A DNA stretch of 64,000 nt from a virus: the IMG/VR virus record IMGVR_UViG_3300024350_000252, positions 174,048 to 238,047 of that record, one strand, 5' to 3'. Below are positions 27,959 through 62,345 of this stretch, piece after piece. The notes below the pieces were generated by a model, which had not been told where the DNA came from, did not search any database, and saw only the letters and a program-made list of their open reading frames with translations. Within the stretch, counting starts at the first letter, position 1; each line of letters starts with the position of its first letter. The position numbers and the translations under genes were made by a program.

Positions 27959-27966
27959 GATAAATA
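27959..27966 (+). promoter_or_regulatory. T4-type late promoter (GATAAATA), 5 nt before gp13
   Basis: TAAATA is followed by ACAGT and then the gp13 ATG. With transcription starting about 6-7 nt after the core, as in T4, the mRNA would begin at or next to the ATG. Confidence 0.65.
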
Positions 27967-27971
27967 ACAGT

Positions 27972-28736
27972 ATGAGCCAACTAGATGAAGAAAAACAGAA
28001 GGTCTATGACTATTGTAAGACCATGCTGGGCGACGGCATGATCGACGTCGAACTAGATCCTATACACTATCAAACAGCCCTTGATAGGTCATTAGCTATT
28101 TTTAGGCAAAGATCGGACAATTCTGTAGAAGAATCTTTCGCATATCTAACGCTGGAAATAGACAAAAACGAGTACATACTGCCTAAAGAAATACAGGTAG
28201 TACGTGAAATCTATAGGCGTTCGATAGGTTCTAGATCCGGCGGCGGCACGGGAGGCACAGTATTTGAACCATTCAATCTAGCCTATACAAATACCTATCT
28301 ATTAAGCTCGACAAACATGGGCGGTCTTCTAACTTATGAACTGTTTGCTCAATATCAAGAACGTGTGGGTAAGATGTTCGGTAGCTTCATACAGTTTACA
28401 TGGCATCCACAAACGCACAAACTGACTATACACCAAAGACCGCGTTCTATGGAACAAGTCATGTTATGGGTTTACAATACTCGCCCAGATCATGCTATCT
28501 TGACAGATACGTATGCTAACATATGGATCAAAGATTACACACTAGCTAACTGTAAAATGATGCTAGGACAAGCACGTGAAAAATTCCAAACTATCGCAGG
28601 CCCAGGCGGCGGAACCAGCCTAAACGGGCAAGCATTAAAACAAGAAGCACAAGCAGATATCGAACGACTGACAGCAGAACTGGTCAACTTTGTACCAGGC
28701 ACTGCTATGGCCGGATATACATTCGTTATTGGTTAA
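27972..28736 (+). CDS. 13: Neck protein (T4 gp13-like)
   Basis: 254 aa against 309 in T4. The N-terminal helices (Val-Tyr-Asp-Tyr-Cys-Lys-x-Met-Leu-Gly-Asp-Gly, then Val-Glu-Leu-Asp-Pro-x-His-Tyr-x-Thr-Ala-Leu-Asp-Arg-Ser) are typical of gp13-type head-completion connectors. So are the Tyr-Leu-Pro-Lys-Glu-Ile-like strand and the C-terminal Trp-Ile-Lys-Asp-Tyr-Thr-Leu-Ala-x-Cys-Lys segment. gp13 binds gp14 and docks on the portal after packaging. In T4 the two are co-directional; here gp14 is divergent. Confidence 0.8.
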   Translation: MSQLDEEKQKVYDYCKTMLGDGMIDVELDPIHYQTALDRSLAIFRQRSDNSVEESFAYLTLEIDKNEYILPKEIQVVREIYRRSIGSRSGGGTGGTVFEPFNLAYTNTYLLSSTNMGGLLTYELFAQYQERVGKMFGSFIQFTWHPQTHKLTIHQRPRSMEQVMLWVYNTRPDHAILTDTYANIWIKDYTLANCKMMLGQAREKFQTIAGPGGGTSLNGQALKQEAQADIERLTAELVNFVPGTAMAGYTFVIG

Positions 28737-28743
28737 ACCACAC

Positions 28744-28772
28744 TTGACAGCAGCATAGACGACCTGTATTAT
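28744..28772 (+). promoter_or_regulatory. Sigma70-type promoter, TTGACA-N17-TATTAT
   Basis: A perfect -35 (28744-28749), a 17-nt spacer and a five-of-six -10 (28767-28772). Expected start is near 28779, and a leader of about 15 nt carries the AGGGGG ribosome site of the dNMP kinase. This marks the kinase as an early gene read by host polymerase inside a late region. Confidence 0.8.
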
Positions 28773-28793
28773 ATACTTTAAACAGGGGGCTCT

Positions 28794-60301: not shown

Positions 60302-60308
60302 TAATATT

Positions 60309-61736
60309 ATGATTAAGAATTACGATTACGATGTACAAAAACTATATCTAGAGATCATGCTCACAGACGCAGAGACTTTCGTGCGTTGCCAGGGCATATT
60401 TGACGCTAGCCTGTTTGATAGACGTTTACAGGAACCAGCAGAGTTTATTAAAACCTATACAGAACAGTATTCTGTGCTGCCAGATGCTGCCATGGTCAAT
60501 GCGGCCTGTAAGACAGAACTGGCACCTGTAGCAGATCTCAAAGATGGACACATAGATTGGTTCATGGATGACTTTGAACAGTTTATACGACACAAGAGCC
60601 TAGAACGTGCCATAATCAAATCCGCGGATCTGCTGGAAAAGAATGACTATGGTGCTGTGGAAGTCATGATCAAAGAAGCTGTACAGATCGGTCTTGCTCG
60701 CGACATGGGCACTGACTATTTCGCAGATCCCCGTGCTCGACTGATGGGACTCAAAGACAAGAATGGACAGGTCAGTACAGGTTGGAGCAGCCTAGATCGC
60801 AAACTGTTTGGCGGCATGAATCGCGGAGAGCTGAATATCTTCGCAGGTGGTTCAGGCGCAGGCAAAAGTCTGTTCCTAGCCAACTTGGGCGTGAACTGGG
60901 CCTTGAACGGCTTGAATGTGGTTTATCTAACGCTGGAACTTTCAGAAGCATTGGTCAGTATGCGCATCGATAGTATGCTGACAGGCATCACTACCAAAGA
61001 GATCTTCAAGCAGATCGATGACGTGGAAATGAAAGTGCGTATCATAGGCAAGAAATCCGGGCGTTTCCAAGTCAAGTACATGCCCTCAGGCAAGACTGCC
61101 AATGACATACGTGCTTATCTAAAAGAGTATGAAATACAAATGGGCCAGAAAGTGGATGTGCTACTGGTAGACTATCTGGATCTGCTCATGCCCATTTCCA
61201 AGAAGATCTCGCCCGCAGATCTCTTTATCAAGGACAAGTTTGTCAGTGAAGAACTGCGTAACTTGGCCATGGAAAAGCAGTGCGTGTTCGTCACAGCCGC
61301 ACAGTTGAATCGGGGTGCTGTAGAAGAAGTAGAGTTTGATCACAGCCATATTTCAGGTGGACTTAGCAAGATACAGACAGCAGATAACGTGTTTGGTATC
61401 TTTACGTCACGTGCCATGCGTGAGCGTGGACGCTATCAGATACAGCTGATGAAGACTCGTTCGTCTAGCGGTGTTGGACAGAAGCTGGATCTAGAGTTTG
61501 ACATAGACACTCTGCGCATCAGTGACCTGCCCGAAGATCAGCAGACTGCGGATAACAGTCCCAGAACTGGCAGCATCATACAGCAGATCAAGAGCCGAGG
61601 CAGCACAGTGGTCGATGAGGACGGTGTAGTCACAGAAGATCCCACCCGAGGCGCAGAAGTGGGCCGTAGCCGTGCCATAGTGGAAAGTACCAAGTTGAGG
61701 CAGTTTATCAACGGACTGACAGAAGATGAAGCATGA
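60309..61736 (+). CDS. 41: Replicative DNA helicase (T4 gp41-like)
   Basis: 475 aa from the ATG at 60309, the same length as T4 gp41; a GTG at 60294 inside the previous gene is an alternative. N-terminal helical domain, then a RecA-type core with Walker A Gly-Gly-Ser-Gly-Ala-Gly-Lys-Ser (180-187), Walker B Val-Leu-Leu-Val-Asp-Tyr-Leu-Asp-Leu-Leu, Thr-Ala-Ala-Gln-Leu-Asn-Arg and an arginine finger region near Thr-Arg-Ser-Ser-Ser-Gly-Val-Gly. Hexameric 5'-3' helicase that moves with gp61. Confidence 0.93.
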   Translation: MIKNYDYDVQKLYLEIMLTDAETFVRCQGIFDASLFDRRLQEPAEFIKTYTEQYSVLPDAAMVNAACKTELAPVADLKDGHIDWFMDDFEQFIRHKSLERAIIKSADLLEKNDYGAVEVMIKEAVQIGLARDMGTDYFADPRARLMGLKDKNGQVSTGWSSLDRKLFGGMNRGELNIFAGGSGAGKSLFLANLGVNWALNGLNVVYLTLELSEALVSMRIDSMLTGITTKEIFKQIDDVEMKVRIIGKKSGRFQVKYMPSGKTANDIRAYLKEYEIQMGQKVDVLLVDYLDLLMPISKKISPADLFIKDKFVSEELRNLAMEKQCVFVTAAQLNRGAVEEVEFDHSHISGGLSKIQTADNVFGIFTSRAMRERGRYQIQLMKTRSSSGVGQKLDLEFDIDTLRISDLPEDQQTADNSPRTGSIIQQIKSRGSTVVDEDGVVTEDPTRGAEVGRSRAIVESTKLRQFINGLTEDEA

Positions 61737-61956
61737 TCGTGTGGAACTGTTTTCTTGGTATCAACAGCAGACAGATACCATAGACGTGCCCTGGGACAGG
61801 GTAGAACAGGCCCTGGGCGATCGCTGGCAGTGGCTACAGCAGCAGCCCCGTCATACCTGCCAAGTCATGGTGGAAAACACACTGGAACAGTATCGTTTGG
61901 TAGCGGAATTTTATCAGGATCAAAAGCTAGCTGAGTATCACTGCTGTTTCGCATAA
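61726..61956 (+). CDS. Small hypothetical protein after gp41
   Basis: 76 aa, overlapping gp41 by 11 nt. Trp- and Gln-rich (Trp-Gln-Trp-Leu-Gln-Gln-Gln-Pro-Arg-His), helical. It ends just before the late promoter. No family recognised. Confidence 0.6.
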   Translation: MKHDRVELFSWYQQQTDTIDVPWDRVEQALGDRWQWLQQQPRHTCQVMVENTLEQYRLVAEFYQDQKLAEYHCCFA

Positions 61957-61959
61957 ATA
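61952..61959 (+). promoter_or_regulatory. T4-type late promoter (CATAAATA), 5 nt before the gene at 61965
   Basis: The core overlaps the preceding stop codon; TACTC and the ATG follow. Confidence 0.65.
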
Positions 61960-61964
61960 TACTC

Positions 61965-62345
61965 ATGAGAGCACATGAATTTATCACTGAAGCTGTACGC
62001 GGCCGTGTACCCCAGGATCTCGTGGACAAAAGCCAGGGTTCTGTCAAACTGACACGCGACACGGGCGGCTACGATCGAGCTTATCATATGAATCGACTGA
62101 TGATGGCCATGGCCATGTCAGATGGGGGTCGAGGCCCTGTGGACATGGACGCAGCTTCATGGTACGAAAAATACAACATCATGTTTCCCTACACAGATCT
62201 AGAAGCTGCCATGGTCAATCAGGCTATCGCTACCATACCCACAGATACCAAGGGCGTGATCGCCCGAGGTAAATCAGTGGAAAATCCCGGCACTAACAAG
62301 ACCAGTCCAGTGGCCCAACAGAAAAAGAATCGTTACGGAGTATAA
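61965..62345 (+). CDS. Hypothetical protein with a capsid-targeting-like N-terminus
   Basis: 126 aa. Met-Arg-Ala-His-Glu-Phe-Ile-Thr-Glu at the start resembles the T4 capsid-targeting peptide ending Glu-Phe-Ile-Ala-Glu. After it come a helical domain with Tyr-His-Met-Asn-Arg-Leu-Met-Met-Ala-Met-Ala-Met and a disordered Lys/Pro-rich end. No catalytic motif. Late promoter and N-terminal peptide suggest an internal head protein. Confidence 0.65.
   Translation: MRAHEFITEAVRGRVPQDLVDKSQGSVKLTRDTGGYDRAYHMNRLMMAMAMSDGGRGPVDMDAASWYEKYNIMFPYTDLEAAMVNQAIATIPTDTKGVIARGKSVENPGTNKTSPVAQQKKNRYGV

Follow-up and report, generated by a model that had tools for sequence, protein, structure and literature searches.

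Where does late transcription begin, relative to the start codon, in a virus whose T4-type late promoter cores stand almost against its genes? This question is raised by the final 64 kb (the window, the whole stretch of DNA analysed here) of IMG/VR virus record IMGVR_UViG_3300024350_000252, a record of 238,047 nt, in which the late core TAAATA repeatedly precedes an ATG by exactly five bases. In T4, the late core occupies positions -13 to -6 relative to +1 (PMC1524935), which puts +1 at the sixth base after the core; with a 5-nt spacer, that base is the A of ATG. The original prediction, made from the letters of the window, named nine genes with this arrangement and proposed that their mRNAs lack a leader. 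All nine occurrences of TAAATA-N5-ATG are present where it placed them, compared with a mean of 1.47 in 100 dinucleotide shuffles of the window (maximum 7; none of the 100 reaches 9), and TAAATA itself is rarer in the window than expected (28 copies vs 76 in shuffles).

We then measured the distance d, in nucleotides, between TAAATA and each downstream ATG opening a frame of at least 60 codons across the 238-kb record, and scanned all hexamers at all offsets from 0 to 40 before such ATGs. TAAATA at d = 5 ranks first of all hexamer-offset pairs (14 sites vs 0.28 expected, a 50-fold enrichment at this distance alone; Poisson P ~1e-19), has a P value eleven orders of magnitude below that of the next pair, and outranks every hexamer resembling a Shine-Dalgarno (SD) sequence. 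Distances in the record number 4 at d = 4, 14 at d = 5, 3 at d = 7 and 1 at d = 8, with none from d = 9 to d = 14 and a broad class from d = 15 upward. Without regard to frame length, TAAATA-N5-ATG occurs 16 times in the record, and its reversed pattern, which served as the record-level control, occurs twice. The same distance peak, with only pyrimidines at -1, appears among 78 related loci (the clade) whose large terminases are 83-88% identical, two near-identical loci having been left out; because these relatives share ancestry, P values here serve to order the signals and should not be taken as formal tests. A count of distances over the whole record and its relatives had been set beforehand as the test of the prediction, and the peak at 5 nt confirms that the fixed spacing is real and reaches well beyond the window.

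The arrangement recurs before the same genes in relatives. On the plus strand of the window, the 14-bp units of core, spacer and ATG comprise TAAATA-ACAGT-ATG (27961-27974) before a gp13-like head-tail adaptor gene (27972-28736), with a core at 4-5 nt in 23 of 23 orthologues; TAAATA-ATGTT-ATG (33992-34005) before a second tube-like protein (34003-35121; 55/55); TAAATA-TGAGT-ATG (36424-36437) before gene 36435-37010 (66/66); TAAATA-TAGTC-ATG (37572-37585) before the gp17 large terminase (37583-39172; 74/77); TAAATA-TTAAC-ATG (39173-39186) before a virion structural protein (39184-40842; 73/73); TAAATA-TTGCT-ATG (44528-44541) before a nucleotidyltransferase-cupin fusion (44539-45297; 24/26); and TAAATA-TACTC-ATG (61954-61967) before gene 61965-62345, whose sole orthologue found has the core at d = 4. 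On the minus strand, TAAATA-TTTTT-ATG (29722-29735) precedes an HNH-like gene (29389-29724) and is kept in 35 of 38 orthologues, the other three having TAAGTA at the same spacing, and TAAATA-TCAAT-ATG (51303-51316) precedes gene 50496-51305, which diverges from its upstream neighbour (1 of 2 orthologues, at d4). Two further minus-strand genes of the window, additional to the nine, have cores at 7 nt: one at 27936-27951 before ATG 27938 of a virion protein gene (26616-27938; d7 in 2 of 2 orthologues), and one, from the distance scan, at 63377-63392 before ATG 63379 of gene 63161-63379, which diverges from gene 63431.

Two departures from the exact core had also been put forward, and they fared differently. 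TAAGTA-ATTGT-ATG (35942-35955, plus strand) before the gp16-like small terminase (35953-36426) seemed core-less in orthologues when only exact TAAATA was scored; scoring TAAGTA shows that it is conserved, at d4 or d5 in 63 of 64 orthologues and mostly at d = 4. By contrast, hldE (22004) was rejected as a member of the class, since its one-mismatch core, TAATTA, is found at d = 5 in none of the clade loci. Gene 36435 has an extra in-frame ATG at 36429 that overlaps its core, and 61 of 66 relatives start only after the core. The three relatives missing the gp17 core have other starts: in L021 and L037 the start abuts the upstream stop, and L067 has the SD-like AAGGA instead.

The sequence around these starts carries a sharp signature. 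The claim that only the distance is conserved did not survive, as the last spacer base is constrained: position -1 holds T or C at 9 of 9 sites in the window, 13 of 14 in the record and, across the clade, every one of 350 distinct d5 sites (T 296, C 54, no purine), compared with 49% pyrimidine at other gene starts. Spacer positions -5 to -2 diverge between relatives at 0.35-0.6 per site, which for most genes equals, exceeds or approximates the divergence of third codon positions. Start codons at d5 are ATG at 368 sites, TTG at 3 and GTG at none. Directly after the ATG, divergence peaks at codon position 3, beginning right at this ATG, which indicates that translation starts there. Upstream, the base before the core is A in 58% of cases and other bases vary; among 231 distinct leaderless sites, no strongly conserved column was found from -31 to -12 that would mark a -35 element.

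The record also encodes a candidate reader of this core. A gp55-family sigma factor gene lies at 131352-132215 of the record (G000:C1; L015:11352-12215), just 5' of an SbcD-like (gp47) gene; its product is identified by profiles phrog_12791 (E 1.5e-77) and phrog_234 (E 3e-24) and matches gp55 in the solved structure of the T4 late complex. T4-type (gp55) late promoters are marked by a -10 core of the TATAAATA type upstream of late genes, found here as TAAATA before gp13, gp17, gp18, gp19 and others. The sigma is a 287-residue long form, to which T4 gp55 aligns only at residues ~148-261, leaving ~140 extra N-terminal residues.

What lies upstream of the cores bears on whether a leader could be transcribed. 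Of the 392 d4-5 cores in the clade, 149 (38%) have a T-tract hairpin no more than 30 nt upstream, compared with 2 when the upstream sequence is shuffled and 11 of 172 leadered cores. In the window, plus-strand intrinsic terminators end 7 nt upstream of the core of 34003 (33955-33984; -15.1 kcal/mol) and 7 nt upstream of the gp17 core (37541-37564; -15.6 kcal/mol, with a hairpin kept in relatives), so that, barring read-through, almost no space remains for a transcribed leader. Among the record's 17 leaderless genes, five are divergent from the gene upstream of them, and the HNH-like gene 29389(-), which the gene caller missed, also has a plus-strand gene upstream. Neither structure in the first 40 nt of the mRNA nor A content differs appreciably between leaderless and other genes.

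A second class of late genes has the same core further away. Among called genes of the record, 17 have a core within 4-8 nt, in 15 cases at 4-5 nt, and 29 have one at 15-36 nt. An SD is present at most of the latter and at none of the d4-5 genes, in which the 11 nt before ATG consist of core and spacer; the empty interval at d9-14 is expected if leaders are either absent or long enough to hold an SD. The eight leadered genes named by the original prediction are all borne out, at d = 15-34, as is the absence of an SD from the leaderless class. Their cores, all on the plus strand, stand at 29791-29796 for the gp18 sheath (29831; d = 34, SD AGGAG; leadered in 38 of 38 orthologues), 33263-33268 for the gp19 tube (33291; d = 22, SD GGAG), 6395-6400 for 6421 (d = 20), 9722-9727 for 9743 (d = 15, SD AGGA), 13286-13291 for 13312 (d = 20), 14865-14870 for 14890 (d = 19), 57335-57340 for 57362 (d = 21) and 63396-63401 for 63431 (d = 29). 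The gp23 gene (found by PF07068) has no core of its own and starts after TTTAAGGAGAACAATAATG, a strong SD.

The split into leaderless and leadered classes is thus real and gene-specific, and the class of each gene is largely fixed across the clade. The leaderless roster of the record holds gp13, the second tube-like protein, gp16 (with TAAGTA), gp17, virion proteins, the HNH-like gene and the nucleotidyltransferase-cupin fusion; the leadered roster holds sheath, tube and baseplate proteins. A superoxide-dismutase-domain (Fe/Mn) gene (34813-35370) and a radical-SAM/B12-like gene (885-2372; both G000:C1, record positions) also have leaderless late promoters. The suggestion that the split sets protein dose is weakly supported and unproven: the SD-led genes include gp18, gp19 and gp23 and exclude terminase and gp13, but leaders are also found before the genes of low-copy baseplate proteins, so that dose sorting is not upheld as a clean rule.

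The trait is also found far outside the clade. Wider loci with only 50-65% large-terminase identity often show it, with a pyrimidine at -1 at 173 of 184 d5 sites, and these wider relatives also have cores at other short distances (d6 26, d7 47, d8 22). Two very large, GC-rich relatives are extreme cases with independent peaks. In one, of 578 kb, 10 (d4) and 31 (d5) of 120 sampled cores are so placed; the other, of 500 kb and 57% GC (G013; L345, L443-L462), has 57 (d4) and 19 (d5) of 134 cores so placed, and over 400 kb of its sequence the majority of TAAATA copies stand 4 or 5 nt before an ATG. A Phosso-like 465-kb record shows a small peak (9 of 51 cores). By contrast, there is no 4-5 nt peak in T4, S-PM2 or PA5oct (whole records) or in CBB, Phosso or Atu_ph07 (100-200 kb each). 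The closest named phages by large terminase, at 46-54% identity, are PA5oct (Pseudomonas), Phosso (Sinorhizobium), Atu_ph07 (Agrobacterium) and CBB (Pectobacterium), all of which have TAAATA cores; in PA5oct, gp13 is leadered, with its core at 32 nt, and the 39184 and 26616 orthologues have theirs at 25 and 19 nt. For CBB, a late ATAAATA motif has been reported, without leaderless placement in the passages found (PMC5259590). The trait thus extends over a broad and mostly uncultured set of giant T4-like phages; the cultured phages examined lack it or have lost it.

The large-terminase tree needs six changes of the trait, and a single origin drawn from it was not upheld; 'absent' labels taken from loci of ~20 kb are unreliable. 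One locus so labelled, L294, has 40 sites in its whole record against 0 for the control. We therefore claim breadth and not a number of origins.

Taken as a whole, the sequence evidence makes it very probable that one gp55-type promoter serves two late modes, a leaderless one with the core 5, sometimes 4 and rarely 6-8 nt before ATG, and a leadered one. In the leaderless mode, TAAATA would act as a -10 element read by the gp55-family phage sigma, presumably on host RNA polymerase; transcription would start at the A of ATG or 0-3 nt from it; and the mRNA, lacking an SD, would be translated from a 5'-terminal AUG, possibly by 70S-type initiation. In the leadered mode, the same core would stand at least 15 nt upstream and be followed by an SD. 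The benefit may lie in compact promoter/start units or in independence from SD-based selection late in infection. The proposal that these mRNAs start at or next to the A of ATG is thus strongly favoured on sequence grounds by the core geometry, the -1 pyrimidine, the preference for ATG, the terminators, conservation in orthologues and the encoded sigma.

Several observations weigh against this interpretation. At leadered promoters, the signature expected of a start site is weak and lacks sharpness. About one-third of the record's leaderless genes begin 8-70 nt after a co-directional gene, so that longer mRNAs could also serve them. A T4-type gp45 sliding clamp (phrog_223) was not found by profile search; there is a clamp candidate at L012:11947-12684, whose PA5oct homologue adjoins DNA polymerase, and its predicted model is too poor to use. 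Finally, the d4 sites of the 500-kb relative mostly have G at -1, which would allow a 1-nt leader there.

This last point bears on whether the transcripts have a very short leader of 1-3 nt instead of none, which would be functionally near-identical to starting at the A of ATG. The d6-d8 sites, more frequent in the wider relatives, fit such a leader, and so does the -1 G; however, d5 predominates, and the -1 base at d5 agrees with initiation at the A of ATG, and we consider a short leader unlikely. It is more improbable that the cores are true promoters that merely add transcripts, with translation mainly from read-through mRNAs by coupling, or by reinitiation at the stop codon next to them, and the 5 nt reflecting compact packing. 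Some leaderless genes, 36435 and 39184 among them, do begin 8-11 nt past a co-directional stop, and L021 and L037, without a gp17 core, start right at the upstream stop. However, gp13, 29389(-), 26616(-), 50496(-) and the superoxide-dismutase-domain gene 34813 of the record are divergent from their neighbours, so that no upstream mRNA feeds them; strong terminators precede gp17 and 34003, and terminator-like hairpins abut over a third of clade d4-5 cores; and packing explains neither the exact 5 nt nor the -1 pyrimidine.

Because TAAATA takes the place of the SD at these starts, it might instead act in translation, giving the start an AT-rich, unstructured or protein-binding context, and not be a promoter. 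We give this very little credence: the same hexamer stands 15-36 nt upstream of SD-bearing late genes, it is established as the late core of T4-type phages (PMC2988020, PMC1524935) and is found after terminators, and folding and A content over the first 40 nt match those of other genes. Chance or base composition, which does place a few TAAATA-N5-ATG in several control phages (15 in PA5oct vs 12 for the reversed pattern), is already refuted by the shuffles and depletion of TAAATA in the window, the record-wide hexamer scan with its d5 enrichment, conservation of placement in orthologues, and peaks that are strongest in GC-rich relatives (57-59% GC).

Late promoters fused to start codons have partial parallels. 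The T4 late promoters (gp55/gp33/gp45; Tevenvirinae) share the TAAATA core, the gp55-family sigma, the lack of a conserved -35 and the position before late genes, but in T4 most cores stand 20-30 nt before the ATG, with no 4-5 nt peak, and SD hexamers lead its start-site scan. The Thermus thermophilus phage phiYS40 is likewise a phage with many leaderless middle and late mRNAs (PMC3594737), although its host phylum already uses leaderless mRNAs widely (PMC12340547), whereas here a T4-type late core serves them beside an SD-led class. In Deinococcus-Thermus, -10 elements adjoining open reading frames are common and give leaderless mRNA (PMC12340547); the promoter lies similarly a few bp before the start codon, but the genes are cellular and the sigma is the housekeeping one. 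The literature searched, which did not cover most subscription journals, yielded no description of a T4-type late promoter joined to a start codon. Leaderless phage mRNAs thus have a precedent in phiYS40, and the gp55-promoter version appears to be new.

Translation from a leaderless mRNA is enhanced by IF1 and IF2 and mostly inhibited by IF3, the IF1 effect having been seen in vitro (PMC9031893). A late programme of the phiYS40 kind would also involve host IF2/IF3 levels that move to favour leaderless mRNA. Phage IF1 genes (PF01176) are found in relatives at G001:264590-264775(-), G002:66617-66811 and G003:2998-3192, in G010, G011, G012 and G014, and in Phosso at 116168-116356; IF1 is absent from T4, S-PM2, PA5oct, CBB and Atu_ph07, and from the record that holds the window, itself probably a fragment. 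Ribosomal protein bS21 (PF01165) is encoded in 2 of 4 records checked (G001:292290-292445(-) and G002:33352-33510), and IF3_C was not found in the four. The presence of IF1 and bS21 in relatives is a lead and not evidence of function. It is conceivable, though we hold it only tentatively, that a large uncultured superclade runs a dedicated leaderless late programme, combining the 14-bp promoter/start units, the long-form gp55 sigma and SD bypass with IF1 and bS21 that bias host ribosomes late in infection.

If the leaderless mode is true, the best-studied phage late promoter is fused to the start codon in wild relatives, and one short element sets the start of both transcription and translation. 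Exact transcript ends would then be predicted for many genes of unannotated giant phages, and promoter position would allow start codons to be corrected. These phages would further offer a natural system for the competition of leaderless and SD-led mRNAs for ribosomes during infection, a question that the co-occurring IF1 genes of several relatives open to direct testing.

Few clues point to a host. Locus L418 (NHCU01000006.1), with a large terminase 66% identical, was binned in a Betaproteobacteria metagenome-assembled genome (TMED41), a weak hint and too weak for Betaproteobacteria to be assigned.

Within the window, late promoters also form divergent pairs a few tens of bp apart, at 27936-27974 between 26616(-) and gp13 and at 63377-63433 between 63161(-) and 63431. 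Further, in the cores at 35942-35947 and 36424-36429 the TAA doubles as the stop codon of the preceding gene (that of gp16 in the case of 36424), so that a stop, a promoter and the next start fit within 14 bp.

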